The position numbers and the translations under genes were made by a program. Source: Pedobacter lusitanus (GTDB taxonomy: Bacteria > Bacteroidota > Bacteroidia > Sphingobacteriales > Sphingobacteriaceae). From it: a stretch of DNA of 64,000 bases. The DNA lies in the NCBI RefSeq assembly GCF_040026395.1, contig NZ_CP157278.1, positions 4,960,001 through 5,024,000 on the forward strand. The letters are read 5' to 3'. This document shows, piece by piece, positions 33,882 to 63,409 of the stretch; position 1 is the first letter of the stretch; each line of letters starts with the position of its first letter. A model generated the notes under the pieces. That model made no database searches. It saw only the letters and a program-made list of their open reading frames with translations, and had not been told where the DNA came from.

Positions 33882-33892
33882 CGGGGATTTAA

Positions 33893-34693: not shown

Positions 34694-34695
34694 AT

Positions 34696-36744: not shown

Positions 36745-36747
36745 ATT

Positions 36748-44875: not shown

Positions 44876-44888
44876 CCTTCTTCTGTTT

Positions 44889-45980: not shown

Positions 45981-46338
45981 AAGGCTCATAAATATAATCT
46001 TTAGGGTCAAATGCTGTTGAAGCGAGTACAAGAAGAATAGCGTCTGCTGAAAAATTATGCATCACATGCCAGTCTTCGGGCAGCAACATTAAGCATTTTT
46101 CCGGACTATCTAAATCAAAGACCTCAGTTGTTTTTCCATTGTTGTTGGTGATTTTGCAGGAACCTTTAATGCAGATTGCTGCCTGATGAGTTTCGTGATG
46201 TCTGTGTCCGCCACGTTCAGTATCATCAACAGAGTAGATATAGAACAATCTTTTAATCTCAAAAGGAACGATATTATCTAATACAGTAAGAATTCCTCTG
46301 CTGTCTTTAAACGTTTGTATATTAATTATATGGGCCAT
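45967..46338 (-). CDS. sugar 3,4-ketoisomerase, FdtA/QdtA-like cupin
   Basis: 123 residues of the WxcM/FdtA cupin family. The motif [11 protein letters not shown] carries the active-site histidines, and I-K-G-S-C-K-I follows on the next strand. FdtA and QdtA convert dTDP-4-keto-6-deoxyglucose to the 3-keto isomer, axial or equatorial at C4; the sequence does not tell which. The gene overlaps the GT14 gene before it and the aminotransferase gene after it, so the three form a tight operon. Confidence 0.88.
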
Positions 46339-47182
46339 GTGCTAATAAGTTCTTGTCAATTAAATCCAGTATTTCAGGGTGAACGGCCGCATCAAATTTT
46401 CTTGCGAACAACATTGCTGATTCTGCAATCTTTCCAAAGTCACTTTTCTCCAGTGTTTTCGGGCTTGCTCCGCCTGCAGACCAATCAATATACCGGTAAT
46501 TATTATTTACTACTTTATCTTTAAACTTCGAATTTAACAGAATTGTCTGAAAAACGAATTCATCACTTGCCCAGCATAAAGAGAAAAAGTGTTTTAGCTT
46601 CGGATCTTCTTCGACTCTTTTTACTACAAATAAAGCAACTTCAGGACTTAGCATCCAGAACATTGACTTCCCATAAGGGTGCAGTTTATAAGGTAAAGTT
46701 CTTTTAGGAAGTATCTTATTGATAAGCATTTCTATTCTGTACTTTCCAATAAAATTATAACTGGTCAGGAAATACTTTTCCATTCTGATTAGTCCTTCTT
46801 TCCAGTCATTCTTAATATCGCGATAGCTCAGAAACTCTTTTCCTTTATTCTGAACAAAAAAGTCATTGATATAATCAGCTGTTTTGATGGGATAATCCTG
46901 ACCGCTTAAAAAATTGATAAAGTCGTACTCAATACCTGTTCCTACAATTTCTTTAATGCATTCAAAAGTTGCCGTTACCGTGCTGAATCCTGCCCATTTT
47001 ACGTCTATTCTGTTATTGATGAAATAAACATTGGGTATAGACTTCAGGAATAAATGTGGGTTTATATCAAATTTCTTATCTACATGTATATAAAAATCGA
47101 AATTCTGATGAGATAAACTTTTAATCATTCTCTCTGTTTGTTTTGGATCAGTATAAGTAAGTATCAAATGAGCAACACGCAT
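46322..47182 (-). CDS. GT14 beta-1,6-N-acetylglucosaminyltransferase-like enzyme, copy 2
   Basis: 286 residues, the same length as copy 1 and with matching segments: L-I-L-T-Y-T-D-P-K-Q-T, Y-I-H-V-D-K-K-F-D-I, N-F-L-S-G-Q-D-Y-P-I-K and C-W-A-S-D-E-F-V-F-Q-T. It is first in the minus-strand operon with the amino-sugar genes and overlaps the next gene by 17 bases. It could transfer the amino sugar made by that operon, though the family usually uses UDP-GlcNAc or UDP-xylose. Confidence 0.87.
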   Translation of the reverse strand: MRVAHLILTYTDPKQTERMIKSLSHQNFDFYIHVDKKFDINPHLFLKSIPNVYFINNRIDVKWAGFSTVTATFECIKEIVGTGIEYDFINFLSGQDYPIKTADYINDFFVQNKGKEFLSYRDIKNDWKEGLIRMEKYFLTSYNFIGKYRIEMLINKILPKRTLPYKLHPYGKSMFWMLSPEVALFVVKRVEEDPKLKHFFSLCWASDEFVFQTILLNSKFKDKVVNNNYRYIDWSAGGASPKTLEKSDFGKIAESAMLFARKFDAAVHPEILDLIDKNLLAHGPYN

Positions 47183-47549: not shown

Positions 47550-48461
47550 ATGAAGCTCACCTCAATTATAACCGTCAATTTTAATCAGCCTGAAGTTACC
47601 ATTGATTTTCTCAGGTCAGTAAAGCTTCATAGTAATCTGTCTGAGGTTGAGGTTATCATTGTCGATAATGGAAGTAAAGAGGATCATCGTCAGGATTTTC
47701 TGAAAGAATATCCTGAACTTATATATATAAGCTCTGCAAAAAATCTTGGGTTTGCCGGAGGGAATAACCTTGGAATTGAGGCAGCTCAGGGGGACTATCT
47801 TTTGTTCTTAAATAATGATACAGAAATTACCGGAAACCTGATCAGTGAGCTGATCAGAGAACTGGATGAGAATGAGGAGATCGGGCTGATATCACCGTTG
47901 TTGTTATATTTTGATAATCCTGATATCATACAATATGCAGGAGCCACACCAATGGATTATTTAACCTGCCGGAACAGTACGATAGGACTCCTGGAAAACA
48001 ATAACGGACAGTATGACCATCAGAGCAGAGAAACTGCTTTCTGTCATGGAGCTGCTATGATGTGTCGTAAACGGGATCTTGAAAGTGCTGGCCTGATGGA
48101 TAAGAATTTCTTTCTTTATTATGAAGAACTGGATTGGTGCGAGCAGTTTAAAAGAGCTGGTAAAAAGATATGGTTTACTGGCAATACAAAAGTTTATCAT
48201 AAAGAATCAATGAGTGTGGGTAAGGAAAGTATGATCAAGACATACTTTATGACAAGAAACAGAATGTTGTTTATCCGTAGAAATACAGGGAAACTTAATA
48301 CTTTGTTTTTTAGTTTATATTATATCGGCATTGCCTGTCCCAAGCAGATATTTATCTATCTTAAAAAGAATAGAACAGATCTGATCAGGTGGGTGTTTCG
48401 TGGCATAAAATGGAATCTTACCCATTCGAAAAACAGTGAAGATTTAGGTTTTAAAATATAA
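47550..48461 (+). CDS. family 2 glycosyltransferase (rhamnosyltransferase-like)
   Basis: 303 residues with S-I-I-T-V-N-F-N-Q-P, V-D-N-G-S, the conserved N-L-G-F-A-G-G-N-N-L-G-I and the metal motif L-N-N-D-T. A C-H-G-A-A-M-M-C segment and Y-Y-E-E-L-D-W-C-E-Q-F-K complete the WbbL-like rhamnosyltransferase pattern. It probably transfers a deoxysugar to a lipid-linked acceptor, fitting the deoxyamino-sugar genes nearby. The next gene begins 6 bases later. Confidence 0.87.
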   Translation: MKLTSIITVNFNQPEVTIDFLRSVKLHSNLSEVEVIIVDNGSKEDHRQDFLKEYPELIYISSAKNLGFAGGNNLGIEAAQGDYLLFLNNDTEITGNLISELIRELDENEEIGLISPLLLYFDNPDIIQYAGATPMDYLTCRNSTIGLLENNNGQYDHQSRETAFCHGAAMMCRKRDLESAGLMDKNFFLYYEELDWCEQFKRAGKKIWFTGNTKVYHKESMSVGKESMIKTYFMTRNRMLFIRRNTGKLNTLFFSLYYIGIACPKQIFIYLKKNRTDLIRWVFRGIKWNLTHSKNSEDLGFKI

Positions 48462-48467
48462 ATATTG

Positions 48468-49637
48468 ATGATTATAATTTTCTGGATCAGCATTTTTCTG
48501 ATCGTTTATACATTTGTTGGTTATGGTTTTGTTCTTTACATCCTGGTGAAAATCAAGAGATTGTTTGTCAAACCATTTGTTTTTAAAACTGATGTCGCTT
48601 TACCTTCGGTCACTTTACTGGTTGCGGCTTATAATGAAGAAGATATCATTGAGGAAAAAATACGGAATACCCTGCAGCTGGCTTATCCGAAAGATAAACT
48701 TCAACTGATTTTTATTACAGATGGTTCTTCAGATCAAACTGCTGCAAGGGTTAGCAATTTTAAGGAAATAACCCTGTTACATCAGGATCTCAGAGCAGGG
48801 AAAATGGCTGCAATCAAAAGGGCTATACCTTTAATTACGGGTGAAATAACCGTATTTACAGATGCCAATACATTCTTAAATGCAGAAGCCATTAATGAAC
48901 TTGTTAAACATTATCAGTATGCTAAAGTCGGGGCTGTAGCGGGTGAAAAGAGAATCCTGGTAGAGGAAACTGCGGATGCAAGTTCTGCAGGGGAAGGATT
49001 TTACTGGAAATATGAATCGAAACTGAAAAAACTCGATTACGAATTATATTCCAATGTAGGTGCTGCCGGCGAATTGTTCAGTATCAGAACTGCACTTTAT
49101 CAGCCAGTAGAAACAGATACAATTATTGATGATCATATGATTGCCATGCGTATTGCAGAAAAAGGGTATATCATTGCCTACGAGCCGGAAGCCTATGCTA
49201 TGGAAACGGCATCGGCTGACGTCAGAGAAGAACTTAAAAGAAAAATCAGGATAGCAGCAGGGGGAATACAATCCATACTGCGACTGAAAAAAGCTGCCAA
49301 TCCCTTTAACCAGCCTGTTTTTACCTTTCAATATATCAGTCACAGGGTTTTACGCTGGACAATAGTGCCTTTTCTGTTGTTTGCAGTTTTTATTCTTAAT
49401 GGAATTATTGCGTTCACAGTTCCTGCTCCTTTTTACCGGATATTGTTTGTTCTGCAGATTCTTTTTTACCTCCTGAGTGTGATTGGGTTTTACTTTGAAC
49501 AGCGGAATATCCGCATCAAAGCATTATTTATCCCTTACTATTTTTGCATGATGAATTATGCAGTTTTAGCAGGTATCATTAAATATTATAATAAGAACCA
49601 AAGTGCTGCCTGGGAAAAATCAAAAAGAAAAGTCTGA
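48468..49637 (+). CDS. membrane family 2 glycosyltransferase (processive type)
   Basis: About 389 residues. An N-terminal helix (I-F-W-I-S-I-F-L-I-V-Y) precedes a GT2 domain with V-A-A-Y-N-E-E-D, D-G-S-S-D and F-T-D-A-N-T. A later D-D-H-M and the K-R-K-I-R-I-A segment sit where processive enzymes keep their acceptor motifs, though QxxRW is not obvious. Three C-terminal membrane helices follow. The frame can start at a TTG at 48465; the next codon, ATG at 48468, is preferred. Its stop is one base from that of the convergent NRPS gene. Confidence 0.86.
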   Translation: MIIIFWISIFLIVYTFVGYGFVLYILVKIKRLFVKPFVFKTDVALPSVTLLVAAYNEEDIIEEKIRNTLQLAYPKDKLQLIFITDGSSDQTAARVSNFKEITLLHQDLRAGKMAAIKRAIPLITGEITVFTDANTFLNAEAINELVKHYQYAKVGAVAGEKRILVEETADASSAGEGFYWKYESKLKKLDYELYSNVGAAGELFSIRTALYQPVETDTIIDDHMIAMRIAEKGYIIAYEPEAYAMETASADVREELKRKIRIAAGGIQSILRLKKAANPFNQPVFTFQYISHRVLRWTIVPFLLFAVFILNGIIAFTVPAPFYRILFVLQILFYLLSVIGFYFEQRNIRIKALFIPYYFCMMNYAVLAGIIKYYNKNQSAAWEKSKRKV

Positions 49638-49638: not shown

Positions 49639-52600
49639 TTAAGAAACGCTGTCCAATACTGATTGCAGCGTTCTGGCAAACTCTTTGTCATAAGGAGCAA
49701 GCAGCATCGTTTTATGATCACCGGGAACGTCATGTACTTCAACTCCTTTCTTTGCGTATTTCTGCCATCCCAGGTATTTGAAGTCTTCTACAAAATAGAC
49801 ATTATCGGTTGCTCTGAATAAATGTATTTTTTCATCAAATGGGGCTAACTTATAGGCCTGATAAGCAATATCATATTTCTTATCAATCCTTCTCATAATT
49901 TCATATATCCCACCTGATTCTTCTTCTGTAATGGTTTTAATTCCGAGAACTTCTTTTAGTCTGGTGGTAATGATATGTTTCTGATAGTTAATAGTAGCTT
50001 TTGGATTCTTGAAAAGTGAAGAGATGATCCACCATAATTTGGGCAATTGTTTTTTGACTCTTTCTTTAAAAACATTAAAATCATTTCCATGAAAATCAAG
50101 GTTTTTTGCATTGGTATCAAAGATTCCCAGCATCTTGATTTCATGTCCCAGTTCCTTTAACTGTCTGGCCATTTCTATCACTACGTAACCTCCAAAAGAG
50201 TAGCCGGCTAAGGCATATGGTCCATGAGGATTCTGGGCGAGTATACTTTCTATATAATAACGGGCTATATCTTCCATATTGTCCATTGGCTCTTCCACAC
50301 CGTCCAGTCCCTGCGCCTGAATACCGAATACAGGTTGTTCCTGATCTACGTGAAGTCCTATTCCGCTAAAATTAAGTACATTGTATCCGCCTCCGTGTAC
50401 AATGTAAATCGGAGTTTTAGACCCACCTGGTTTAATAGGAACCAGCGAGGTATAGGTAGTAGGCCGGTTTTGTCCGTCAAGTAGTTTGGCCAGTGTTCTT
50501 ACTGTTGGATATTCAAATAATGTTGCCAGCGGTAATCCATGTCCATTTGCCTTTTCTATCTGGATCATGAACTGAATAGCAATCAGGGAATGTCCGCCAA
50601 GTTCAAAGAAATTATCATCAGTACCAATCTCTTTGACATTAAGCAACTCTTCCCATAATTTGACAATTACATTTTCGGTAGCTGTTTGTGGTGCGGTATA
50701 TTTACTCAGATCTCCTGAATGCAGGTGATCAGGAGCAGGCAAAAGCTTTTTATCTATTTTACCACTGCTGGTTCTTGGAAATTCCATCACCCAGACAAAT
50801 ACCGATGGAATCATAAAGGCAGGGAGTCTGTTTTGTATTTCGCTTCTTACATAACCAGTATCCTGACTGCCATTAGAAGAGGCGAGATAGGCAACTAATC
50901 TTTTCTGTCCGTTATGATCTTCTTTTGCAGTAACGACTACCTGTGCAATACCCGGAATACGGTTTAATACGGCTTCAACTTCTCCGATCTCAATTCTATA
51001 GCCTCTTATCTTGACCTGATCGTCATTACGTCCCAGAAATTCTATATTTCCATCGGGCAGAATTCTTGCCAGATCACCTGAACGATAAGTTCTAACCTGT
51101 TTTCCATCCGGTAAGGTGAGCATAACAAATTTCTCATCCGTCAGTTCAGGTTTGTTTAAATAACCTGTAGCCAGACTGGCACCTGCAATGCATAATTCCC
51201 CGGTGTCTCCCGGTGATACAATTTCGAGGTTTTCATCAGTAATATAAATAACCGTATTGTATACAGGAATTCCAATGTTAGGTAAGGCCGGCCAACGGGA
51301 AGGATTTCCGGTTAACTTCAGTTGTGTAACCACGTGACATTCAGTCGGGCCATATTGATTGTAAAGTACGCAACCAGGAACAGCTCTGAAAAACTGTTCA
51401 ATCTGCGGGGTGATTTTTAATTGTTCACCTGCGGTCATGACCTCTTTTAAAGCTCTAGGGAATTTTCCTATGCTTGCAGCGGTTTCGGCCAGGAATTGTA
51501 GCGCAACAAAAGGCAGATAGATCCTGTTGATTTGTTTTACTTCAATTTTGTCTAGCAGACTATCAGGGTTTAATCTCAGTACATCATCAATCAGAATTAA
51601 TTGTCCTCCGCTGCATAGTGTACAGAATATCTCCTGAAAGGATACATCAAAAGTAAGTGGTGCAAATTGCAGGGTTATACTTCCGGAACCGGCAGTTGAA
51701 TTGGCTGTCTGCCATTGAATCAGATTAACTAATGCAAGCTGAGTCATATATACTCCTTTCGGTTTTCCTGTAGACCCTGAAGTGTATAAAACATATCCGT
51801 TAGGATTTTGATTACTCATGGTTTGCACTGGCAAACTATAAGTAATGTCAAAATCTATAGTCTGTAAATCCAGTTGCTGAAAGAATTTGTTTTCTACAGC
51901 TCCCGCAATACAGAACTGGAGATTGGAATCATTAATAATCTGACTTAACCTGATTTCGGGATAAGTTGGGTCAAGAGGCAGATAGGCTTTTCCTGCTTTC
52001 AGAATAGCAAGGATAGCCACAATCATATTTATTCCTCTGGTTGTACTGATTCCTATGATTTGCTGATCAGGTGCGCGGTTTAAGATTGCTCTGCTCAGGT
52101 TATCTGCTCTGATATCAAGATTACTGTAGCTGATGGATTCATCCTGAAAGGTAATTGCAGTCTGATCCTTGAAAATGGTAGCTGCTTTTTCAAACAAACT
52201 CTGAATGGTTATTCCTTTTAAGGCAGCAATCTCTTCACTGAAATCAGTTGTCTTTATATGGGAAACTGTAGTACTTCTTTTAAAAACAGGTTCGGCAAGA
52301 AAACAGGCATTATCTGATTGTATTAATTCTTTCAGCTTATGATCGGGTTGAGTGGTGATGAATCTGATTATGTTTTCAAAACCAGCCATCATTTGCCGGA
52401 TCGTTTGCTCTTCAAATAATTGTGTATTATAAGACCATTCCAGTACAAAAGAGTCTTCTGAACCGCTTGCATTAATGAACAATTCAAAGCTTTCAAATGC
52501 TCTGGGATTACTGATCAGTTTATAATCCAGTTGCTCAAAATTTACTCCGTCATCTAAACCCATGTCAACGTTGAATACAACAGGAGCCAGGGGGATTCTG

Positions 52601-53697
52601 GAAGGGTCGCGGGCTATTTTAAGATTCTTTAATAAATTACCCCAGGTAATCTGCTGATGATCAAAAGCATCAAGTACGGCTGGTTTTCTGATCTTCAGAT
52701 ATTCTCTGAAACTGTAATTTTTGTTTGGATAACTTCTCAGCGGGAGGAAATTTACACAATGTCCAACCAGATTATAATGACCGGTGACTGCCTGTCCGGA
52801 TGCGGGTAATCCTACTACTATATCTTTTTGTCCGCTTAAAAAATGAAGGAAGACCTCAAATGCGGCCAGAAAAGTAATTACCAGACTGCTTCCTTCGGCT
52901 TTCCCAGTTTTCTTCAGCGCGTGAATCAGTTCCTGAGAGATCTTAAAATCCAGCCGGTTGCTTTTAAATGTTCTGAGTTGCGGACGTTCATGGTCAGTTG
53001 GTATATCCAGTACTGGTATACTTTGTTCATATTCTTTTAACCAGAACTGTTCATTGATTTTGCGTTCTGCGCCTTTTGAAAACTCCAGCTGTTCAAAGGC
53101 GAAATCAGTAAGTGCAGTTGCTTCTTCTAAAACAGGACGAGTGCCATTAGCCAGTGCAGTATAGATTTTACTGATATCCTGTAAGATGATACCCAGTGAC
53201 CAGCCATCGCAGATGATATGATGTCCGGTAAAGGTAAAGTGATATTCCTGATCAGAAAGCTTTTGTAAACCGGTTTTAAACAACGGCCCGTTTAAAAGAT
53301 CAAACAGAAACATTGCATCACCATTTACATATGCGCTGATTTCTTCTTCCTGATGGTCAGCATTCAGCTCAGACAGATCTGCGAAAGACACTTCTGCCTT
53401 TACCTGATCAAAAATGAGTATTGTTGAGCCATCTCTGCTGAATGCGGATCTTAAAGCTTCATGTCTTTCTGCTACTCTTTTTATAGTATCGGCTAATAAA
53501 TCAATCCGGATATTCCCTTTGAGACGGAGTGAGACAGACTCATTGTATGCCCTGCTTGCATCATCACCACCCAGCATACAGGAAGTCCAGATTTCTATCT
53601 GGGGCTCTGTTGATGGTGCGGTGCGAATAATTTCTCCTCCGGCAAAAGGATCAAAATCAACCTGTTTATATATTATGTTTTTTGTAGAATCTATCAT
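49639..53697 (-). CDS. NRPS module C-A-PCP-TE
   Basis: About 1352 residues. Condensation domain (about 35-470) with intact HHxxxDG (second His160). Adenylation domain (about 500-985) with L-Y-T-S-G-S-T-G-K-P-K-G and G-P-T-E-C-H-V-V; its pocket residues read by alignment to GrsA are D-V-Q-Y-M-A-Q-V-V-K, close to the proline code. Carrier domain with Ser1037 in G-G-H-S-L. Type I thioesterase with Ser1167 (G-Y-S-F-G-G) and His1328. It condenses a second amino acid with the chain from the upstream protein and releases it by hydrolysis or cyclisation. A TTG at 53715 would overlap the previous gene; the ATG at 53697 begins one base after that stop. Confidence 0.93.
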   Translation of the reverse strand: MIDSTKNIIYKQVDFDPFAGGEIIRTAPSTEPQIEIWTSCMLGGDDASRAYNESVSLRLKGNIRIDLLADTIKRVAERHEALRSAFSRDGSTILIFDQVKAEVSFADLSELNADHQEEEISAYVNGDAMFLFDLLNGPLFKTGLQKLSDQEYHFTFTGHHIICDGWSLGIILQDISKIYTALANGTRPVLEEATALTDFAFEQLEFSKGAERKINEQFWLKEYEQSIPVLDIPTDHERPQLRTFKSNRLDFKISQELIHALKKTGKAEGSSLVITFLAAFEVFLHFLSGQKDIVVGLPASGQAVTGHYNLVGHCVNFLPLRSYPNKNYSFREYLKIRKPAVLDAFDHQQITWGNLLKNLKIARDPSRIPLAPVVFNVDMGLDDGVNFEQLDYKLISNPRAFESFELFINASGSEDSFVLEWSYNTQLFEEQTIRQMMAGFENIIRFITTQPDHKLKELIQSDNACFLAEPVFKRSTTVSHIKTTDFSEEIAALKGITIQSLFEKAATIFKDQTAITFQDESISYSNLDIRADNLSRAILNRAPDQQIIGISTTRGINMIVAILAILKAGKAYLPLDPTYPEIRLSQIINDSNLQFCIAGAVENKFFQQLDLQTIDFDITYSLPVQTMSNQNPNGYVLYTSGSTGKPKGVYMTQLALVNLIQWQTANSTAGSGSITLQFAPLTFDVSFQEIFCTLCSGGQLILIDDVLRLNPDSLLDKIEVKQINRIYLPFVALQFLAETAASIGKFPRALKEVMTAGEQLKITPQIEQFFRAVPGCVLYNQYGPTECHVVTQLKLTGNPSRWPALPNIGIPVYNTVIYITDENLEIVSPGDTGELCIAGASLATGYLNKPELTDEKFVMLTLPDGKQVRTYRSGDLARILPDGNIEFLGRNDDQVKIRGYRIEIGEVEAVLNRIPGIAQVVVTAKEDHNGQKRLVAYLASSNGSQDTGYVRSEIQNRLPAFMIPSVFVWVMEFPRTSSGKIDKKLLPAPDHLHSGDLSKYTAPQTATENVIVKLWEELLNVKEIGTDDNFFELGGHSLIAIQFMIQIEKANGHGLPLATLFEYPTVRTLAKLLDGQNRPTTYTSLVPIKPGGSKTPIYIVHGGGYNVLNFSGIGLHVDQEQPVFGIQAQGLDGVEEPMDNMEDIARYYIESILAQNPHGPYALAGYSFGGYVVIEMARQLKELGHEIKMLGIFDTNAKNLDFHGNDFNVFKERVKKQLPKLWWIISSLFKNPKATINYQKHIITTRLKEVLGIKTITEEESGGIYEIMRRIDKKYDIAYQAYKLAPFDEKIHLFRATDNVYFVEDFKYLGWQKYAKKGVEVHDVPGDHKTMLLAPYDKEFARTLQSVLDSVS

Positions 53698-53698
53698 T

Positions 53699-56600
53699 TT
53701 AATTATTTGACTCAACCTGAAGATATTTTTCCGGATTTTCCGGGTCTGTAATAAACCAGGCAGGATTTCCTGACTGATCTCTTCCCAGTCTGGCTCCGGG
53801 AACAGGCGGTTGAGGTACAGGGGTTATTTTTGAATTGTCAGATCCGGATAAAGCCGCAGGTGTATTTAGAGGGATCAGCCCCACTTTCATTAATTCTGCT
53901 ATACTTTCTTTAAACCGGTCAGCAATCAGTTTAATCTCATCCAGTGTATGGGCTGCAGTAAGGAAACAGGGAAAACCATCCCAGATATGAATTCCTTTAT
54001 ATCTCATTAAGGTAAACAGCAGCTCGCTGTATGGATATTCCTCTTTAAATTTAATCTTCCATAAAGAACCAAAATGGGCTGCAAATAGTGGAAGTCCCAG
54101 CTCTTCAGCAACATCGTTTAACAGACCAGCCAGATAAGCCGTATTCTTATTCAGGTTTGCCTGGAATTCAGGACCTTTAGCCTTCATGTATTCCAGACTT
54201 GCCTTGCCAGCTGCAAGGGCTAATGGATGTCTTACAAAAGTTCCGGCAAAATAAGTTACACCAACTTCAGGAAAGGAAGTGTCTCCGTATTGCCAGAAGC
54301 CACCATCCAGTGCATCCATATATTGTTTTTTCCCTGCAATGGCTCCGATGGGCAGGCCTCCTCCAATAACTTTTCCATAAGTACCCAGATCGGCTTTTAT
54401 TCCAAACAGGGCCTGTGCACCACCCTGATGTGCACGGAAACCAGTGATAACTTCATCAAAAATCAGTACGGTTTCAGATTTAAGGGTAATTTCTCTTACC
54501 TGTTTGAGGAATTCTACCGGCTGAAATTCGGGTCTCCGGCTTTGTACAGGTTCTACCAGTACAGCTGCTATTTCGTGCGCTCTTTCCCTGATAATATTTA
54601 ATGTTTCTTCTGTTCCATAATCCAGTACCAGCATGTTTTGTACGGCTTCTGGCATAATTCCCGGCGCAGCAGGGAAGCTTTTTAGTTTTTTGGTCCCTCT
54701 GATAATCACTTCATCATTGATCCCGTGATAAGAGCCGGAGAAAGCAATAATCAATGAACGCCCGGTTACTGTTCTCGCTATTCTCATTGCTCCTAATACG
54801 GCCTCAGAGCCAGTATTACAGAGTGCAGCCCTGTCAAACCCTGTAAATTCACAGATCAGCTTACTGACATCACCTGCAAGTTCGTGCTGCGGACCTATCT
54901 CATATCCTTTTTCTACCTGTTCGAGTATGGCATTTTTTAATACCGGATGCTGATAACCTAATAAGTTTGATCCAAAGCCGTTCAACGCATCTATGTACTC
55001 ATTTCCGTCAATATCCCATAAATGACTACCTGCTGATTTATTGGTAACAATGGAATAAACGATTTCTTTAGTATAAGGTTTAAACCCTGACACTACACGG
55101 GGATCTGCCATATATGATCTGTGCTTCTGTGTATAGGTTTTGCTGGCGGCGGTTTTTTGATTATAACGTGCTGTTAACTGTTCAAGGAACTGCTTTTGTT
55201 CTGGTTGTAATTCAGTGACGTTTTTTTCTATACGTGCAGTTGCTCCAAAAGGCTTTTTAATTTCTGCCAGTTCTTCTGCTGATAGCTCGGCATTTGTTTT
55301 GACTGCTGATTTTACCGGTGAGCTGCCATTGCTGAAATTTAATGGAGCAGGAGAACCACTCATCAATTCTACCTGCCGGGTTAATAATTGTAATTGCTGT
55401 GCAATTAGTCCCAAAGCGGTATCGGCAGGGGTAAAGGCAGAGGTTTGTGCAGCAGGCTGTGCATTTACAGTTGCCTGAAAAACCTGTGGTTCAGCTATAT
55501 TTTCTTTTGGTAAATTTTTGTCTATATAAGTTGCGAGCGCATCAATGGTTGCATATTCTTCATTGAGTTGTCTGAAACTGATTGGCAGGGAAAACTCTTT
55601 TTTAAATGTTAGTGCTACCTGTGTCATTAGTAATGAATCCAGGCCAATCTCAATAAAACTGCTGTCTGGAGTAACACCATCCATCTCAATTCCGGAGGCA
55701 TTTTCCAGTAAATGTTTTATCTTTTCAATCAGAGTGTCTTTCCTCATGGCAGTAAGAGTATTTGTATCTTGTTGGTTAAAATTTGTATGAGTTTTTTGTT
55801 CAGTAATGTTTTTTGGTTCAACCCAATATCTTTTCTTAAGATAACTATAGGTTGGTAAATCAACCTTTCGTCTCTGCTGACCCTGGTAGAATGATTTCCA
55901 GTCCGGATTTAAGCCTGATAACCAGGCTTTACCCAGCGCATTTAATATAGCATCATAAGAACCTGTTATTTCTTTTTTATCCAGACTTGCAATCGCAGTA
56001 AAAGAAGCTTTAGCTTCATGCTGCCAGGCCAGAGTTGTGCAGGTATTTCCAGGTCCGGTTTCAATCAATACAGGATTATCCAGTTCGAGTATAGTATCGA
56101 GCGCCGGAGAAAATTTAACCGTCTTTCTCATGTGTTCTGTCCAGTAATCCGCGCTTTGTGCTTGTGTATCAGTGAGAAACTGACCGGTTACTGTAGAGAC
56201 AACGGGTTTCTGAGGTCTGTTTAGTTTAACCTCACTGACAACCTTACTAAAGTCTTTCAGCACAGGGTCCATCATAGAAGAATGAAATGCATGGCTGGTC
56301 AGTAACTTCTTGTGCAGAATCAGTTGCTCATCCAGTTGTATCTGAAAAGCATCGATATCTTCATTTTTACCAGCTACGACACATAGTTTAGGGCTATTTA
56401 TTGCGGCCAGGGATAAAGTTTCCGGAAGGATTTTTTCAATTTCCGAAGCTGAAGTACGTACACTTAACATACTTCCTGCCGGGAGTGCACTGACCATCGT
56501 ACCGCGCGCAGCAATCAATTTAAGGCCATCTTCCAATGTGAAAATTCCGGCTAAATGTGCAGCAACATATTCTCCTATACTGTGTCCGCAAAGGATGGAA

Positions 56601-59600
56601 GGTTGTATTCCCCAGCTTATCCATAATTGCGCCAGTGCATAGGATGTAACAAATAATGCTGGTTGTGTATATTTGGTATTATTTAGTAAACCGGCATGTT
56701 CATCATCAGCTGCTGCATAAATAACTGTTCTGATATCTCTATCCAGGTACGCAGTCAGAATTGAAGCACATTTGTCGACTGCAGTTTTATATACAGGTTC
56801 GTTTATATATAATTCTGCACCCATTCCAGGATACTGGGCACCCTGACCAGGAAAAAGAAATACGGTTTCACCCGGTAGTTTTTTTAGTCTGGAAGCTGGA
56901 ATTGCGGTATCAGTCAAGGCATCAAGCAGCTCCTGTTTTGTCCCGGCAACAATAAAACTACGATGATTGAAATCAGCTCTTGTAGTTTGCAGTGTAAAGG
57001 CGGTATCAGCGAGGTTAAGTTCCTGCCGGGTTTGTAATTGTGTTTTTAAGGCCAGTTCATAATCCTGGAGGCTTTCCTGGGATTTAGCAGACCAGCTGAA
57101 CAGATTTTTTAGTCTGCCATTGTCTTGATTTACACCAGGTAAATGGTCATGCTCCTCTACGATAACGTGAACATTTGTACCACCTACTCCAAAAGAACTT
57201 ACCCCCGCTCTTCTGATATCTTTTGTATCCCAGTGTTTTAACTGGTTGTTTACATAAAAAGGAGACTCAGTAAAAGAGATATTTGGATTGGGTTTATCAA
57301 AATTAATAGAAGGCGGGATTTCTTTATGATATAATGCGAGTGTAGTTTTAATCAGACCGGCTACGCCAGCAGCAGCAGTCATGTGTCCCATATTACTTTT
57401 GATCGAACCAATTGCACAAAACTGCTGATTGGTTTGTTCACCAAATGCCTGTTTTAATCCTTCAATTTCAATAGGGTCACCCAGAGGGGTTGCAGTTCCA
57501 TGGGTCTCTACATAAGAAATAGTTGAGGGATCTACTGCTGCATCGGCTATTGCCATAGCAATTGCCGTGGCCTGTCCATCGGTACTGGGAGCAGTAAAAC
57601 TACCTTTCGCACCCCCATCATTATTTACCCCGACACCTTTGATCAGTCCATAAATTGTATCACCATCCTGTAAAGCAGCAGACAGTGTTTTTAAAAGTAC
57701 AACTCCGGCACCATCACTAAAGACAGTTCCTGTGGCCTTTTCATCAAAAGACCGGCAATGACCATCTTTACTTAACATAGCACCTTCCTGATAGATATGT
57801 CCGCTGTGAATAGGAGAGGAGATGCTTGCACCACCGGCAATAGCTACATCACATTGATTTTTTCGTAAACTTTCTACCGCCTGGGAAACTGCAAGTAATG
57901 AAGTGGAACAAGCTGAGAAAACACTAACTGCAGGCCCTTTTAAATCCAGTTCATAAGCCGTTCTGGAAGAGATATAATCCTTCTCATTAACAGTCATGAC
58001 CTGGAAACTTCCGATTTGATTAATTAAATCTGTATTTCCTGCAACGTTATGCGGAAAATAACTGTTATTTCCTGAGCCGGCAAAAACGCCGATTACTCCA
58101 TCATAAACGGCTGGCAAATGTCCGGATTTTTCCAAAACATCTCTGCTGATTTCAAGAAAAACCCTTTGCTGGGGATCCATGAGTTCTGCAAGTTTAGGGT
58201 TGATGCCAAAAAATGCAGGATCAAATAAGTCAGCATCCTTTATAATTCCTCTTGCTTTTACATATAGCGGATCATTCTTTAGCTCAGCTGGAATAGAATA
58301 ATCAAGTTCCTGATCTTTAAAAAATGTAGTAGTTTCTTCGCCATTTCGCAGTACCTGCCATAACTCTTCAATTGTATCAGCACCAGGAAATTTACCTGCC
58401 ATGCCAATAATTGCAACAGGCTGACCCGGATCTGAAGGATGTTCCTGAGTCCGTCTTTTTTTAGGCATGGCCGATGCTGCATTAATATAATTAATTAGCT
58501 GACTGATTTGTGGAAACTGATAAAGTTTGGTAATTGGTAATTCTATATGTTGTTCAGTTCTTAATAAAGCGACTGTCTTTAATGCCAGCAGGGAGTTTCC
58601 TCCCAGCTCGAAGAAATTATCATTGATTCCTACTGTATCCAATTCCAGTACCTGTATCCAGATCGCTGCAATTCTTTTTTCCAGAGCAGTCCTGGCCGGG
58701 CTGTAAAGTGCAGATAAATCTGGTCTTTTACGCTCTGGTACAGGTAATGCTTTTTTATCAATCTTACCACTGGTTGTTTTTGGGAAATCTTCCATCCAGA
58801 TAAAAGAAGATGGAATCATATAATCCGGTAAACTGGCTTCAAGTTGTTTTCTGATCAGCAGGGTATTCTTGTTTTCGTGATCAGCAATAAGATAAGCCAG
58901 CAATCTGTTCTGACCACTCAGATCTGGCTTTGCAATAACTACTGCCTGCCTGATCCCGTCAATATGATTAAGTTTTACTTCAATTTCACCCAGTTCAATC
59001 CTGTAACCTCTGATTTTAACCTGATCATCCTGTCTACCCAGAAATTCTATAGTTCCATCTGCTTCATAGCGGGCGAGGTCTCCAGTGAGATAAACACGGG
59101 TCTGTTTACCATTAACGGGAATAATTATAAACTTTTCTGCAGTTAATTCAGGTTTGTTCAGATAACCCTGGGCCAGGCTGATGCCAGAAATGCACAACTC
59201 GCCGGTTTCACCTGATTTAAGCAGGTTTCTGTCCTGGTCTAAAATATGAATTGCTGTATTGGATATTGGTGTACCTATGTTGGGTAGTAATGGCCAGTTT
59301 GCTGCTGGCCCCTGTAATTTAAGCTCACTCACCACATGACATTCTGTAGGGCCATACTGGTTGAAAAGAACACAACTTCCAAGACCCGCAAAAAAGTCTT
59401 TTACCTGTGGGGTTATTTTTAGTTGTTCACCGGCAGTAATTACTTCTTTTAAACTTTTGGGGAACTGCTTGTTTACGCTTGCAGCTTCTGCCAGAAACTG
59501 AAGAGCTACGAAAGGCAGAAAAATACGGTCAATCTGATTTTCGTCAATGAAGTTAAGCAAATTGACAGGGTCCAGTCTTAAATCATCACTGATTAATACT

Positions 59601-60283
59601 AAAGTAGCTCCTGTTGTCAGTGTAGAGAATATCTCCTGGAAAGATACATCAAAGCTGATTGGCGCAAATTGCAATGTTTTACTGCCCGGGCCGGCCACAG
59701 AGTTTTTCTGTTGCCATAAAATGAGATTAACCAGTGCAGCTTGTGTCATATACACTCCTTTCGGAGTGCCTGTAGAACCTGAAGTATACAATACATAAGC
59801 ATTCGGATTTTGTCCGGTAAGCTGACTTTGAGCCAGATGCTGTTTGGTTGAGATTTCGGCAGGTTCGTCAATATTGTTTAATAGTGTATTTAATCCGGTT
59901 GTCAGGAAAAAATCCTGATCAGTTTCCGGGCAAATACAGGTCTTGATGCCAGAATCCTTAATAATCTGTGTTAATCTTTGTTTTGGATAAGCCGGGTCTA
60001 AAGGAAGGTAAGCCCTTCCTGACTGGAGTATCGCCAGTAGGGCGATAATCATATCGGCCGATCTGGTTGTGCTTAAACCAATAATATCTTCATTTAGTGT
60101 TAATTCAGTAATTTGCTGACCTAATCTGATAACTTTCTGAAAAAGAATTTCATAAGTGATCTGCTCATGTGCTGTCGAAAGGGCCGTGAGCTGGGGGAAA
60201 TTTCTGGCTGCACTTTCAAAAAGTGTAAATACCAAAGAAACTGATTCCGGGTCAGTAAAATCCTGTTTAGTAATATTATGCAT
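53699..60283 (-). CDS. hybrid NRPS-PKS: A-PCP-KS-AT-ACP-aminotransferase
   Basis: 2194 residues. Adenylation domain (about 20-520), pocket code by alignment D-V-Q-F-I-A-Q-V-V-K, no preceding C domain, so it is a loading module. PCP Ser564 (G-G-N-S-L). Ketosynthase about 623-1040 with Cys792 (A-C-S-T-S). Acyltransferase with Ser1235 (G-H-S-I-G-E) and H-A-F-H at 1331-1334, which indicates malonyl-CoA. ACP Ser1550 (G-L-D-S-L). Class-III aminotransferase about 1718-2128 with PLP Lys1971 (G-K-V-I-G-G-G). A C-terminal tail has P-V-P-G-A-R-L-G-R-D as in McyE-type synthases. No ketoreductase is present, so the aminotransferase should convert the beta-ketone to a beta-amine, as in iturin and microcystin assembly. 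Confidence 0.93.
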   Translation of the reverse strand: MHNITKQDFTDPESVSLVFTLFESAARNFPQLTALSTAHEQITYEILFQKVIRLGQQITELTLNEDIIGLSTTRSADMIIALLAILQSGRAYLPLDPAYPKQRLTQIIKDSGIKTCICPETDQDFFLTTGLNTLLNNIDEPAEISTKQHLAQSQLTGQNPNAYVLYTSGSTGTPKGVYMTQAALVNLILWQQKNSVAGPGSKTLQFAPISFDVSFQEIFSTLTTGATLVLISDDLRLDPVNLLNFIDENQIDRIFLPFVALQFLAEAASVNKQFPKSLKEVITAGEQLKITPQVKDFFAGLGSCVLFNQYGPTECHVVSELKLQGPAANWPLLPNIGTPISNTAIHILDQDRNLLKSGETGELCISGISLAQGYLNKPELTAEKFIIIPVNGKQTRVYLTGDLARYEADGTIEFLGRQDDQVKIRGYRIELGEIEVKLNHIDGIRQAVVIAKPDLSGQNRLLAYLIADHENKNTLLIRKQLEASLPDYMIPSSFIWMEDFPKTTSGKIDKKALPVPERKRPDLSALYSPARTALEKRIAAIWIQVLELDTVGINDNFFELGGNSLLALKTVALLRTEQHIELPITKLYQFPQISQLINYINAASAMPKKRRTQEHPSDPGQPVAIIGMAGKFPGADTIEELWQVLRNGEETTTFFKDQELDYSIPAELKNDPLYVKARGIIKDADLFDPAFFGINPKLAELMDPQQRVFLEISRDVLEKSGHLPAVYDGVIGVFAGSGNNSYFPHNVAGNTDLINQIGSFQVMTVNEKDYISSRTAYELDLKGPAVSVFSACSTSLLAVSQAVESLRKNQCDVAIAGGASISSPIHSGHIYQEGAMLSKDGHCRSFDEKATGTVFSDGAGVVLLKTLSAALQDGDTIYGLIKGVGVNNDGGAKGSFTAPSTDGQATAIAMAIADAAVDPSTISYVETHGTATPLGDPIEIEGLKQAFGEQTNQQFCAIGSIKSNMGHMTAAAGVAGLIKTTLALYHKEIPPSINFDKPNPNISFTESPFYVNNQLKHWDTKDIRRAGVSSFGVGGTNVHVIVEEHDHLPGVNQDNGRLKNLFSWSAKSQESLQDYELALKTQLQTRQELNLADTAFTLQTTRADFNHRSFIVAGTKQELLDALTDTAIPASRLKKLPGETVFLFPGQGAQYPGMGAELYINEPVYKTAVDKCASILTAYLDRDIRTVIYAAADDEHAGLLNNTKYTQPALFVTSYALAQLWISWGIQPSILCGHSIGEYVAAHLAGIFTLEDGLKLIAARGTMVSALPAGSMLSVRTSASEIEKILPETLSLAAINSPKLCVVAGKNEDIDAFQIQLDEQLILHKKLLTSHAFHSSMMDPVLKDFSKVVSEVKLNRPQKPVVSTVTGQFLTDTQAQSADYWTEHMRKTVKFSPALDTILELDNPVLIETGPGNTCTTLAWQHEAKASFTAIASLDKKEITGSYDAILNALGKAWLSGLNPDWKSFYQGQQRRKVDLPTYSYLKKRYWVEPKNITEQKTHTNFNQQDTNTLTAMRKDTLIEKIKHLLENASGIEMDGVTPDSSFIEIGLDSLLMTQVALTFKKEFSLPISFRQLNEEYATIDALATYIDKNLPKENIAEPQVFQATVNAQPAAQTSAFTPADTALGLIAQQLQLLTRQVELMSGSPAPLNFSNGSSPVKSAVKTNAELSAEELAEIKKPFGATARIEKNVTELQPEQKQFLEQLTARYNQKTAASKTYTQKHRSYMADPRVVSGFKPYTKEIVYSIVTNKSAGSHLWDIDGNEYIDALNGFGSNLLGYQHPVLKNAILEQVEKGYEIGPQHELAGDVSKLICEFTGFDRAALCNTGSEAVLGAMRIARTVTGRSLIIAFSGSYHGINDEVIIRGTKKLKSFPAAPGIMPEAVQNMLVLDYGTEETLNIIRERAHEIAAVLVEPVQSRRPEFQPVEFLKQVREITLKSETVLIFDEVITGFRAHQGGAQALFGIKADLGTYGKVIGGGLPIGAIAGKKQYMDALDGGFWQYGDTSFPEVGVTYFAGTFVRHPLALAAGKASLEYMKAKGPEFQANLNKNTAYLAGLLNDVAEELGLPLFAAHFGSLWKIKFKEEYPYSELLFTLMRYKGIHIWDGFPCFLTAAHTLDEIKLIADRFKESIAELMKVGLIPLNTPAALSGSDNSKITPVPQPPVPGARLGRDQSGNPAWFITDPENPEKYLQVESNN

Positions 60284-61067
60284 TAACTTCTAATTTTTTT
60301 AACTGATCATAAATATCCTTCCTAATGAACAAACGTTTCATGGCAACAGTAGAATGCGCCAGTATATAACCGGCTTTTCTTAATTTATCACAGCTTTTTT
60401 TTATTCTGAAAAGGAAGGTTTTGTCCCTGGTATTATAAACCTCGTCAAATTCTACCAGAATGGCCTTAACATTTAATTTGTCTTCAATTATAGTATCAAT
60501 AACCTTATATTCAGCTCCTTCTATTTCTATTTTAAGCAGGTCGATATGCTGGTGATCCAATTGTTGCATTAGATTACTTAAACGGTCAACGGGGGCTTCA
60601 ATGAATTTCTTTGACTCCTTAAACAAATAAGCAGAATGGGAAGAATAGTTCTCTTTTTCGGGGTCATAAAATTTCATTGTTTTCTTTTTGTCCCAGAGGC
60701 CGACAGCAACAAATTTTATTTCTGAGAATTGTTTACTACTTATATTATATACATAAGGAGCAAGAGTTTTGTCCAGTGTTAAGGGGATCCCATAATCTAC
60801 ATAATCTTTAACCTGATTAAAGTGATTAATCCCATAAGGAGAGGGATCAAAAATAAAAACTTTGGAATCAAAAGCCATTTTAAGTTCTGTATCAAAAGAA
60901 ATGTCTTCACCGGCACCAACACAATAACAAATTGAACCTGACCCTAAGAAATGATCAGGAACCATATATCCATGTCTTACTGAGCCATAATAACTGAGAT
61001 TTTTCAATGGTTTTACGTTAGATTGATGATGAATGCCTAAAATTTTCTTAATAAATTGAGTTGCCAT
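60276..61067 (-). CDS. FkbM-family methyltransferase
   Basis: 263 residues. A class-I methyltransferase with C-V-G-A-G-E-D-I-S-F-D near residue 50 as the S-adenosylmethionine loop, F-D-P-S-P as the next acidic motif and the family signature L-L-K-I-E-I-E-G-A-E-Y near residue 185. FkbM enzymes O-methylate hydroxyls of polyketides and sugars. It overlaps the NRPS-PKS gene by 8 bases and is first in the operon, so it likely tailors the peptide-polyketide product; whether an O or N atom is methylated cannot be told. Confidence 0.88.
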   Translation of the reverse strand: MATQFIKKILGIHHQSNVKPLKNLSYYGSVRHGYMVPDHFLGSGSICYCVGAGEDISFDTELKMAFDSKVFIFDPSPYGINHFNQVKDYVDYGIPLTLDKTLAPYVYNISSKQFSEIKFVAVGLWDKKKTMKFYDPEKENYSSHSAYLFKESKKFIEAPVDRLSNLMQQLDHQHIDLLKIEIEGAEYKVIDTIIEDKLNVKAILVEFDEVYNTRDKTFLFRIKKSCDKLRKAGYILAHSTVAMKRLFIRKDIYDQLKKLEVNA

Positions 61068-61524
61068 CCTGAGCGTATTTTGAGTTTGCGTTAATTTTTA
61101 CCTCTTAATTAGTATTATGTTAATTTAAGAAAGCTAAATGATATTTTCTTAATTATTTATATAATACCAAGATGTTCCCGTGATTGCGTTTTACATGATT
61201 TTATAGATTAAAGGATTGCTTTGTGTACTGTTTTTATCTAAGAATTTAAGAATTCGTTTATTTCTGCTATTCTGAGAATAATTAACAAAGATCGTTCCTC
61301 TTCTCCCTATAAGAAATACTAGTTAATGATAACTGGTTGTCTGCCTCAGTTTAAAACATGTTGTCATTATTTTGTTACTAATTTGATCTAATGATTTGTC
61401 AGGATGAAAAAGGCTTCTTTTTATTTTTAGGGTATTATTTTCCCCAGTTAAATTCAATACTTTTGGAATCTGAAAGAAGCTGAACTTTAATCAGCTAGTA
61501 TATTCAAATCTTTGCTTGGTGCTT
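61068..61524. other. 457-base divergent intergenic region
   Basis: Between the biosynthetic operon (minus) and the TetR gene (plus). No gene is seen. It should hold both promoters; a TetR-type operator would be expected here, but no clear long palindrome was found by eye. One -7 box at 61458 is described separately. Confidence 0.5.
61458..61465 (+). promoter_or_regulatory. candidate -7 box for the TetR gene
   Basis: TACTTTTG matches TAnnTTTG, 60 bases before the ATG at 61525. No TTTG lies at the -33 distance, so support is limited. Confidence 0.3.
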
Positions 61525-62112
61525 ATGGATAAAGATGAAATTGTAATTAGTGAAATTTTAATTGCCGCCAAATCTTTATTTGGAAAATTCGGGTTAAAAA
61601 AGACAACGATAGAGGATATCTCCGCAGCAGCCGGTAAAGGAAAAAGTACACTTTATTATTATTTCCCCGGAAAGAATGAAATCTTCGCTGCTGTTGTAAA
61701 AGATGAGATGAAAGCAGTGATTAAAAATTTAAGGGAAACAGTAAACAGAGCACTATCTGCAAAAGATAAACTGAAAGCTTTTTTAAATTTTCAAAGTATA
61801 GCTATCCTGGAATTCAGAAGTCTTTATAAAGTGATTTTTGAAGATATGATTGAATCAAGGAGGATGCTGCTTCCGCTAAGGCTTAAATACGAACAGATGC
61901 AGCTGGGTATGATCAGTGAAATACTTCTTGGAGGTACACAAAGTGGTGAATTTAAAGAACTTTCGGCAGAGAGTATTCATAAAATGTCTTTTGTTCTTAT
62001 TGTCGCTTTCAGGGGGCTTCACTTTCCGCTGTCTATTAACCCTTCAGAAGTACAGTCCCATGAATATTTTGATGAGCTGGTAGATATGCTTATCGAGGGT
62101 ATTGGGAATTAA
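61525..62112 (+). CDS. TetR/AcrR-family transcriptional regulator
   Basis: About 195 residues. The N-terminal helix-turn-helix (about 10-55) has the family pattern T-T-I-E-D-I-S-A-A-A-G-K-G-K-S-T-L-Y-Y-Y-F. The C-terminal part is an all-helical ligand-binding domain. TTG and GTG codons upstream at 61516 and 61519 are in frame, but the ATG at 61525 is the natural start. It is divergent from the NRPS-PKS operon and close to the next gene, so it could control either; the ligand is unknown. Confidence 0.9.
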   Translation: MDKDEIVISEILIAAKSLFGKFGLKKTTIEDISAAAGKGKSTLYYYFPGKNEIFAAVVKDEMKAVIKNLRETVNRALSAKDKLKAFLNFQSIAILEFRSLYKVIFEDMIESRRMLLPLRLKYEQMQLGMISEILLGGTQSGEFKELSAESIHKMSFVLIVAFRGLHFPLSINPSEVQSHEYFDELVDMLIEGIGN

Positions 62113-62134
62113 TAATTTAAACCACCATATTTAT

Positions 62135-63409
62135 ATGATGAATTACCTGGATATACTAGATCAGGTCAGAGCACATGTCTCGAGCTTGTTTCACACTAAT
62201 AAAGACGAGAGATTAATCTATCATAATCTGCTGCATACCGAACAGGTGGTCAAAGCTGCAGTGAAAATTGCTAACCACTATCAGTTATCAGATCATGATT
62301 TTTTTGTAGTGAGCATAGCCGCGTGGTTTCATGATATTGGTTATTTGACCAGTTGTGAAAAACATGAAGAACGGGGAGCTGGTCTTGTAAAAGAATTTCT
62401 GGAATCTAAAGGAGCAGATCCTGAGTTAACCAGTCTGGTGATGAATTGTATTCTGGCTACCAGAATGCCGCAACGTCCGGTAGGGCTGCTTGAAGAAATT
62501 GTATGTGATGCAGATCTCTTTCATCTGGGTAGTGAAGATTTCAGAGAAAGAAATAAACTGATCCGTAAAGAGGCCAGCGCTTTTGCTGGTAAAGATATTG
62601 ATAAACACGAATGGCGTCTAAAAACAATTATGCTTTTTGAGTCGCATCATTATCATACGGATTACTGCCGTGATTTACTCAATGAAAAAAAAGAGATGAA
62701 TCTGAATGAATTGAAAGAAAAAGTGATCAAAGATGATCATGAAAAGTCAAAAGAAGAGAAAGCAATCAATTCGGTTCTGGAAAATACTGACCATCATCCT
62801 GAAATAGCAGCTACCGGATCTAAGGCTCAGCTCATGGAAAAAAAAGAAAATAAAAAGGAAGAGAAGAAAAAAAGTGACCGTCCTGATAAAGGGATAGAAA
62901 CGATGTTCAGAATTTCGTCAGGTAACCATCAGCGTTTAAGTGATATGGCAGATAATAAAGCACATATCATGATTTCCACTAACTCTATTATTCTGTCGGT
63001 TACCCTTAGTGTTTTACTGCGAAAGCTGGAAGATAATCCTCATTTGATTATTCCTACTTTAATATTACTGGTTATTTGTGTGGTGACTATGGTGTTTTCT
63101 ATACTGGCCACCAGACCAACAGTTCCTCCGGGAACTTTTACACACGAAGATATTGAGCAAAAAAAGGTGAATCTGCTGTTCTTTGGTAATTTTTACCGGA
63201 TGGCCTTGCCTGATTATGTAGAAGGGATGCAGAATATGATGGAGGACAGAGATTTTCTATATGGAAGTCTGATCCGGGACTTATATTCACAGGGAGTTGT
63301 CTTAGGACGTAAATATCGTCTGTTAAGAGTTGCTTACAATGTATTTATGTTCGGTATTATTGCTTCTGTTCTCGCATTTGTTATTGCCAGTGCGGTAGTA
63401 GCTTTATAG
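62135..63409 (+). CDS. HD-domain protein fused to a Pycsar-effector-like (PycTM/DUF5706) membrane region
   Basis: About 424 residues. Residues 1-190 are an HD phosphohydrolase with metal-site histidines in L-L-H-T-E-Q, the H-D pair in W-F-H-D-I-G-Y and a later D-A-D-L-F-H. A charged lysine/glutamate-rich linker (about 190-265) follows. The C-terminal part has the D-N-K-A-H-I-M-I-S-T-N-S segment and two membrane helices of the Pycsar effector family, then L-Y-S-Q-G-V-V-L-G-R-K-Y and a final helix. Longer frames need a TTG at 62102; the ATG at 62135 is chosen. The HD domain may hydrolyse a nucleotide sensed or released at the membrane; no cyclase gene is adjacent. Confidence 0.82.
   Translation: MMNYLDILDQVRAHVSSLFHTNKDERLIYHNLLHTEQVVKAAVKIANHYQLSDHDFFVVSIAAWFHDIGYLTSCEKHEERGAGLVKEFLESKGADPELTSLVMNCILATRMPQRPVGLLEEIVCDADLFHLGSEDFRERNKLIRKEASAFAGKDIDKHEWRLKTIMLFESHHYHTDYCRDLLNEKKEMNLNELKEKVIKDDHEKSKEEKAINSVLENTDHHPEIAATGSKAQLMEKKENKKEEKKKSDRPDKGIETMFRISSGNHQRLSDMADNKAHIMISTNSIILSVTLSVLLRKLEDNPHLIIPTLILLVICVVTMVFSILATRPTVPPGTFTHEDIEQKKVNLLFFGNFYRMALPDYVEGMQNMMEDRDFLYGSLIRDLYSQGVVLGRKYRLLRVAYNVFMFGIIASVLAFVIASAVVAL

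Follow-up and report, generated by a model that had tools for sequence, protein, structure and literature searches.

What does a small hybrid assembly line in Pedobacter lusitanus make, and what is it for? The question is raised by three tightly packed genes on the minus strand of a 64,000-nucleotide stretch of its DNA (hereafter the window; positions 4,960,001–5,024,000 of a single 6.05-Mb contig), which encode an FkbM-family methyltransferase and two proteins that together contain nonribosomal peptide synthetase (NRPS) and polyketide synthase (PKS) modules. This operon is one copy of a hybrid NRPS-PKS family spread through Bacteroidota, not a lone oddity. To the fuller reading that this phylum-wide family makes a proline-based product, tied to exopolysaccharide in Sphingobacteriaceae and Spirosoma as well as in a few further groups, we give even chances.

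The operon starts with the methyltransferase gene (60,276–61,067; 263 aa; PF05050, 7.3e-10; TIGR01444). It is followed by gene 1 (53,699–60,283; 2194 aa), which Pfam, homologs and motifs resolve into adenylation, peptidyl carrier protein, ketosynthase, acyltransferase, acyl carrier protein and aminotransferase domains (A-PCP-KS-AT-ACP-AMT), and by gene 2 (49,639–53,715; 1358 aa; TTG start), which Pfam and motifs resolve into condensation, adenylation, carrier and thioesterase domains (C-A-PCP-TE). Consecutive open reading frames (ORFs) overlap by 8 and 17 bases. Pfam recovers AMP-binding, two PP-binding, N- and C-terminal KS, AT and Aminotran_3 matches in gene 1, and Condensation, AMP-binding, PP-binding and Thioesterase in gene 2, which amounts to three modules, one PKS and two NRPS. 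In the minus-strand order of translation we find A1 (58,745–60,220), KS (56,948–58,423; C792, H928, H967), AT (55,925–56,863; GHSIGE at S1235, and HAFH), AMT (53,867–55,228; YGK motif with the pyridoxal phosphate lysine K1971; Aminotran_3, 9.4e-51), A2 (50,758–52,194) and TE (49,702–50,412; GYSFGG at S1173, and H1334). Both A domains have the A3 and A10 motifs, the condensation motif of gene 2 reads HHIICDG (165), and carrier serines stand at 564 and 1550 in gene 1 and 1043 in gene 2. We take these to be the catalytic residues, and likewise take GHSIGE with HAFH to indicate a preference for malonyl-CoA, the predicted AT substrate. The ORFs, the Pfam order and the intact motifs thus bear out the description of complete, colinear domains given by the first-pass annotation, a preliminary account made from the letters of this DNA.

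The arrangement is that of a MycA-type hybrid: KS-AT-ACP, then an AMT of the Aminotran_3 or glutamate-1-semialdehyde (GSA) type, then condensation, with all catalytic motifs of the domains present. In a comparison with PDB structures, the AMT aligned over 461 aa with that of mycosubtilin synthase (6kfu, E = 1.1e-121), and free-standing GSA aminomutases ranked behind it (6.1e-54 and weaker). A GSA-type AMT at the PKS-NRPS junction is therefore shared with the mycosubtilin/iturin system, and the module order of MycA, KS-AT-ACP-AMT, is also that of gene 1. The likeness ends at the starter. MycA takes a fatty acid as its starter and contributes to a long cyclic lipopeptide, and the iturin and mycosubtilin synthetases join a fatty acyl ligase starter to a multi-module NRPS, whereas here an amino-acid-type A domain supplies the starter, one further residue follows and the line stops at three modules; it is not a lipopeptide synthetase of that class. 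The function of the MycA AMT is cited in PMC3870968. Transamination of a beta-keto thioester is the predicted function of the AMT in gene 1.

Relatives of this synthetase are numerous. Of 8000 candidates scored in a protein search with gene 1, 7828 matched at E ≤ 1e-100; the best 120 listed have the same domain set, some fused with gene 2, and the closest homologs bearing an organism name, among the matches listed, are from Pedobacter cryoconitis and relatives. Within the taxonomic family of the window, 88 of 301 genomes match and 75 are counted as members, five of which gave fragmented or partial matches (G109, G170, G198, G216, G290); the other 13, with partial or KS/AT- or A-like matches, were left out and stand among the 226 non-members in the counts below (G101, G155, G165, G173, G177, G197, G215, G220, G234, G248, G262, G264, G271). 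A sample of 395 genomes from the phylum yielded 28 matches at E ≤ 1e-200, 14 of them counted as members by eye, eight of these being family genomes that are also in the 301-genome set. The best 80 named loci listed include some from Pedobacter, Mucilaginibacter, Spirosoma, Hymenobacter, Flavobacteriaceae and Chitinophagaceae, with more divergent copies in records labelled Marinobacter, Tychonema, Calothrix, Pseudoxanthomonas and others.

It follows that the earlier description of the operon as a candidate undescribed pathway does not stand as a lone find. The layout A-CP-KS-AT-CP-PLP1 (CP, carrier protein), the same as in gene 1, was tabulated in 2013 for Pedobacter heparinus C6XWU5 (PMC3870968), which in the part of that survey consulted is an entry with a generic predicted product, without an isolated product or context. 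A P. heparinus gene (P0034) is 66% identical to gene 1 of the window; its identity with C6XWU5 is unchecked. Among top-ranked literature search results we found neither a product nor a glycan link for the family. In a Pedobacter survey none of the 34 multimodular NRPS clusters had a MIBiG match (PMC12181424), the portion consulted leaving unstated whether this cluster is included, and a second survey, again as far as consulted, reports few MIBiG matches overall (PMC10609062). A close match among annotated plasmid records was considered and dropped, since the best-ranked one, from Spirosoma linguale, is 49.3% identical. In the genome of P. lusitanus itself, short DNA matches to the synthetase at 2.06–2.10 Mb and 5.94–5.95 Mb suggest further large NRPS loci.

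What the line loads can be predicted from the adenylation codes. A1 carries DVQFIAQVVK. Among 120 gene-1 sequences (the window protein, P0002, and its best 119 homologs listed), 77 have DVQFMAQVVK and 26 DVQFIAQVVK, so that 103 share DVQF[MI]AQVVK; the remainder show twelve other codes, or ten if single variants of one pattern are pooled. Three DLTKIGEVVK and two DAFTIAQIVK stand in this minority, so that a few relatives would load another residue. The 68 gene-1 A domains of the loci analysed include 64 that start with DVQ and six that read DVQ[FY]IAHVVK. The best PDB matches of the A1 pocket region, and the closest solved ones, are the first modules of tyrocidine synthase 2 (1.9e-36) and gramicidin S synthase 2 (3.5e-34), which we take to be proline modules. 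Proline modules of these synthetases are elongation modules of cyclic decapeptides; they have H in the motif NxYGPxE, where A1 of the window has Q. The code thus follows DVQxxAxVVK and the nearest solved relatives are proline modules, with Q instead of H at position 322. On this evidence A1 is predicted to activate L-proline, and A2, with the A1-like code DVQYMAQVVK, is predicted to load proline as well.

The glutamine is one reason to consider that the chemistry is right and the residue wrong, the A domains accepting hydroxyproline, pipecolate or a similar analogue of proline, or a different amino acid altogether. His is usual at position 322 of proline codes. Moreover, Cupin_8 (JmjC-like) proteins, candidate hydroxylases that could supply hydroxylated substrates, are matched by our model (c4) in 17 of 79 loci and in 1 of 39 random stretches, a comparison in which profile hidden Markov models built from the flank sequences themselves favour the flanks. 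We nevertheless consider a residue other than proline improbable. The best structural matches of A1 are the two proline-associated synthetases, and in the part of a published table consulted here DVQYIAHVVK, DVQFVSQVMK and DVQFVAQVVK are all assigned to Pro (PMC9113097), the last being one residue away from the A1 code, so the Gln variant of a proline code has precedent.

The second residue appears to have a history of its own. Of 57 gene-2 codes, 25 (a hand count from the code list) fall in the commonest class, DILQ[LI]G..WK, presumably a glycine type, and four are DLTKMGHIGK, which we take to be an aspartate type. The code of the window occurs in six, all in its own branch (the window, L039, L040, L041, L078 and L087). 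In a sliding comparison, residues 641–920 of the gene-2 protein (P0001) are 56–74% identical to A1 of the window and 16–50% identical to the A2 domains of five relatives (glycine-, aspartate- and DIVQ-type), whereas the following PCP stretch (1001–1080) is closer to the A2 relatives (39–51%, against 30% to A1). An A2 core that is A1-like, beside a PCP stretch that is not, is most simply explained by the replacement of an older A2 with an A1-like domain in this branch. The branch would then be a natural experiment, in which a domain swap probably changed the terminal residue, most likely glycine, to proline. In other relatives gene 2 contains two adenylation domains (L060, L094 and L111, 2148–2427 aa; likewise L074 and L103), and these may add a further residue.

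Put together, A1 would load L-proline onto the first PCP, and KS-AT-ACP would add one malonate to give 3-oxo-3-(pyrrolidin-2-yl)propanoyl-ACP. No ketoreductase (KR) was matched by Pfam in the operon proteins, nor by the single KR-like pattern tried, and for lack of a KR the ketone would pass to the AMT and become the amine of 3-amino-3-(pyrrolidin-2-yl)propanoyl-ACP. The C domain would join this beta-amino acyl unit to the residue on A2, proline here and most often of the glycine type in relatives, and the TE would release 3-amino-3-(pyrrolidin-2-yl)propanoyl-proline, the predicted product. After the TE the product may remain a free acid, close to a lactam ring (7- or 8-membered) or be passed to a sugar. 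The domains support the logic proposed in the first-pass annotation: amino acid, one malonate, beta-amination, second amino acid, release. Dolaproine- and detoxinine-type units are also proline extended by a PKS module; they carry a beta-oxygen where a beta-amine is predicted here. Methylation of the product, raised earlier as a possibility, is not required by the presence of the first gene: that gene has matches in 6 of 301 family genomes (E ≤ 1e-40), all from the genus of the window, and FkbM enzymes are found in polysaccharide loci too.

The carrier proteins would have to be primed by a phosphopantetheinyl transferase (PPTase) encoded elsewhere in the genome. That none is adjacent is true of the window but not of the family, in which an Sfp-type PPTase (c0) is the commonest neighbour. 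It is present in 52 of 79 named loci, a set in which contig ends truncate some members, and usually follows gene 2 immediately. The window and L087 lack it beside the operon. Four other PPTase-superfamily matches in the genome of P. lusitanus score 13–52 bits with the c0 model, whereas the five weakest c0 members reach at least 170 bits, which marks these matches as proteins of other kinds. A further observation is a PPTase-superfamily match just left of the window (4,959,734–4,959,988), inside a 1428-aa open frame. The missing neighbour, shared with 27 of 79 loci when those cut by contig ends are included, could mean that the cluster is silent or decayed, and a decayed copy seems present in another genome, where NRPS-PKS gene fragments lie approximately 15–24 kb from the glycosyltransferase gene c1 discussed below (G101, C1:2130324–2138750). 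With all catalytic motifs of the operon intact and four PPTase-superfamily matches elsewhere in the genome, we regard silence or decay as very improbable.

The genes to the left of the operon may hint at its purpose, and this exopolysaccharide context was missed in the earlier account of the neighbourhood. The locus runs from 22.3 to 49.6 kb of the window. Its core (22,260–36,132, plus strand) encodes a response regulator, Bac_transf, OEP, Wzz/Wzc, Wzy_C, glycosyltransferases, a hexapeptide transferase and a Wzx flippase (Pfam scan without 33,893–34,693). Amino-sugar genes follow (44,063–47,182, minus strand: a branch glycosyltransferase, an FdtA-like gene, a DegT aminotransferase and a TIGR04325 putative methyltransferase), and the last genes are a pair of GT2 glycosyltransferases, c2 (47,550–48,461, plus strand) and c1 (48,465–49,637, plus strand), the latter convergent with the NRPS gene. 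An initiating transferase, Wzx, Wzy, Wzc and glycosyltransferases are all present, which makes this a Wzx/Wzy exopolysaccharide locus. The statement that no transporter is adjacent consequently holds for the nearest genes and not farther left, where OEP, Wzz/Wzc and Wzx are found from 22.3 kb. Genes for a gluconate 2-dehydrogenase subunit 3-like protein and a GMC oxidoreductase also lie inside the locus (36,166–38,445, plus strand). Two candidates were given up: c11 (44,063–44,875) as an N-acyltransferase for the amino sugar, its homologs being named TIGR04325 methyltransferases, and Poly_export (Wza) as a linkage marker, both own-genome matches among those listed being far from the window. 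In Sphingobacteriaceae, genomes lacking a member NRPS-PKS (L174 and L175 are examples) have similar Wzx/Wzy/Wzc sets ending in c2-c1.

Co-occurrence across genomes is consistent with a link between the two loci. At E ≤ 1e-70, c1 is found in 161 of 301 family genomes, with one copy per genome save for two exceptions, and it is present in 74 of the 75 NRPS-PKS genomes against 87 of the 226 others (Fisher 1.4e-23, relatedness ignored). The distance between c1 and the synthetase is at most 25 kb in 39 of 74 genomes and at most 10 kb in 33; random placement would give roughly 1.4% within 25 kb, an approximate figure (58 kb of a genome taken as 4.2 Mb, without regard to contig breaks). This proximity recurs in six genera and in several arrangements: convergent with c1 downstream (18 in the window genus, one each in genus groups g19 and g4), co-directional with c1 upstream (six in the window genus, four in g14, three in g21), co-directional with c1 approximately 17–19 kb downstream (five in g14, one in g17) and, in a Segetibacter locus (L085), with the NRPS-PKS inside the locus between c12 and c2-c1. 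In the phylum sample c1 occurs in 12 of 14 members against 38 of 381 others; with all matches included the figure is 13 of 28. Outside the family, where the background of 378 genomes is approximate, it occurs in four of six members (G543, G662, G485 and G445, not G449 and G530), a c1-like gene lying at 15 kb in G543 (one of two copies) and at 30 kb in G662. Sphingobacteriaceae loci have at least two scored polysaccharide genes in 19 of 26 cases, and random stretches in 3 of 39 (5.1e-8, without correction for relatedness; 42 stretches were drawn, 40 listed and 39 used, one being dropped for overlapping another). The models behind these scores come from the flank sequences, which favours the loci. 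In the gene-1 tree all four Spirosoma rows are polysaccharide-linked, and the linked rows need at least six label changes, gains or losses, on well-supported branches. This tree was made by a quick method from 45 of 80 rows, two long branches being flagged as possibly misplaced; a length and motif filter dropped the other 35, including six polysaccharide-linked Mucilaginibacter loci with c7, a gene described below.

Several observations weigh against a general tie to exopolysaccharide. For 35 of 74 genomes c1 lies beyond 25 kb, either on the same contig (16) or on a different one (19), and the c1 matches outside the family are 38–59% identical, so their strict orthology is uncertain. The genomes compared are related and hence not independent, and the statistics ignore relatedness. 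Outside Sphingobacteriaceae, at least two polysaccharide genes occur within the flanks covered in 9 of 53 loci against 3 of 39 random stretches (Fisher 0.23) and at least one in 16 of 53 against 5 of 39 (0.077), an unmatched comparison since all 39 stretches come from Sphingobacteriaceae genomes; L097, counted as outside, groups with Mucilaginibacter in the tree. Pfam tallies (150 ORFs sampled from the 408 in flanks outside Sphingobacteriaceae, and 150 from the 496 in controls) give GT2 in five flank and three control ORFs, while Bac_transf (4) and Polysacc_synt (4) are among the first 25 families of the flank tally only. Within the flanks covered, no scored polysaccharide gene accompanies 22 of the 45 tree rows, among them 9 of 10 in a mainly Flavobacteriaceae clade and 5 of 5 Hymenobacter rows, so the core function seems not to need an exopolysaccharide locus. 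No candidate gene for attaching the product to a sugar was identified among the neighbours, and proline activation is itself a prediction from code and structure matches. That all loci of the family are polysaccharide-linked was a proposal we dropped, as it is contradicted by the flank counts, the Pfam tallies and the tree rows.

Some of these observations favour a free secreted small molecule, a beta-amino dipeptide or lactam with a signalling, inhibitory or metal-binding role, the proximity to exopolysaccharide genes then reflecting a shared variable genomic island. The scored polysaccharide neighbours are missing from most Flavobacteriaceae and all Hymenobacter tree rows, in Flavobacteriaceae loci Cupin_8, methyltransferase and CAAX-protease-like genes recur in their place, and the enrichment outside Sphingobacteriaceae is not significant. 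However, c1 is missing from a single NRPS-PKS genome of the 75, although 87 of 226 others carry it alone, and the proximity is repeated in six genera and in different arrangements. A free molecule is in our judgment a serious alternative, though somewhat less probable than the exopolysaccharide tie. We therefore keep to that tie where the evidence is strongest: it is likely in Sphingobacteriaceae and Spirosoma, and weak and unproven in other groups. In the linked groups the product is most likely an accessory of the glycan, a proposal that is unproven; it would be a substituent, or a glycosylated metabolite made with the transferases of the locus.

A more specific proposal is that the terminal TE acts as an acyltransferase moving the peptidyl group onto an exopolysaccharide sugar, the gene set being a machine for decorating polysaccharide. 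It is suggested by c7, an A-PCP-TE protein of approximately 885 aa that lacks a C domain, has a code of the glycine type and lies among exopolysaccharide genes in six Mucilaginibacter loci and in g14 genomes (L172, L173 and L178). Over approximately 870 aa, c7 is 52–61% identical to the gene-2 terminal modules of 20-odd relatives (best rows), and its TE falls in the same group as the gene-2 TEs. Unless its TE can use an acceptor besides water, a stand-alone aminoacyl-PCP-TE would be futile, doing no more than setting glycine free. The nearest TEs to that of the window outside its own branch are from the polysaccharide-linked L085 (Segetibacter) and L067 and L117 (Spirosoma), and also from L053, which is unlinked. 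On the other side, acyl transfer by the TE is a supposition, many c7 genes sit away from c1, gene 2 in the window genus is 41–47% identical to c7 where listed, with that of the window below the cut-off, and A-PCP-TE enzymes with other chemistry exist. We consider the proposal unlikely, and equally doubtful its extended form, in which minimal hybrid lines, instead of making a free antibiotic, would supply a surface exopolysaccharide with a proline-derived beta-amino acyl group, with the TE and c7 transferring the chain before Wzx export. If true, assembly-line natural-product chemistry would serve as a glycan-decoration system. As to c7 itself, loci with it include L172, L173, L043, L045, L081, L082, L090 and L113, the code being of the glycine type in the six read; L172 and L173 have no intact NRPS-PKS in the stretch examined, the c7 assignments in L096 and L101 are pieces of gene 2 cut off where the contigs end, and that in L098 is doubtful.

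Other neighbours, with ORFs from a simple caller, deserve mention. Cupin_8/JmjC-like genes (c4) lie near or between the synthetase genes in L048, L051, L054, L061, L083, L088, L100, L101 and others. In the window, two genes lie divergently upstream of the FkbM gene (61,516–63,409, plus strand): one encodes a TetR regulator, the other a protein of 435 aa with a PycTM (Pycsar effector) domain. Both recur at the same place in loci of its Pedobacter branch.

A synthetase this compact, found across many genera of one phylum, would be expected to have a general role. Should the glycan link hold, nonribosomal chemistry and surface-polysaccharide biology would be brought together, and the absence of a dedicated transporter would be explained.

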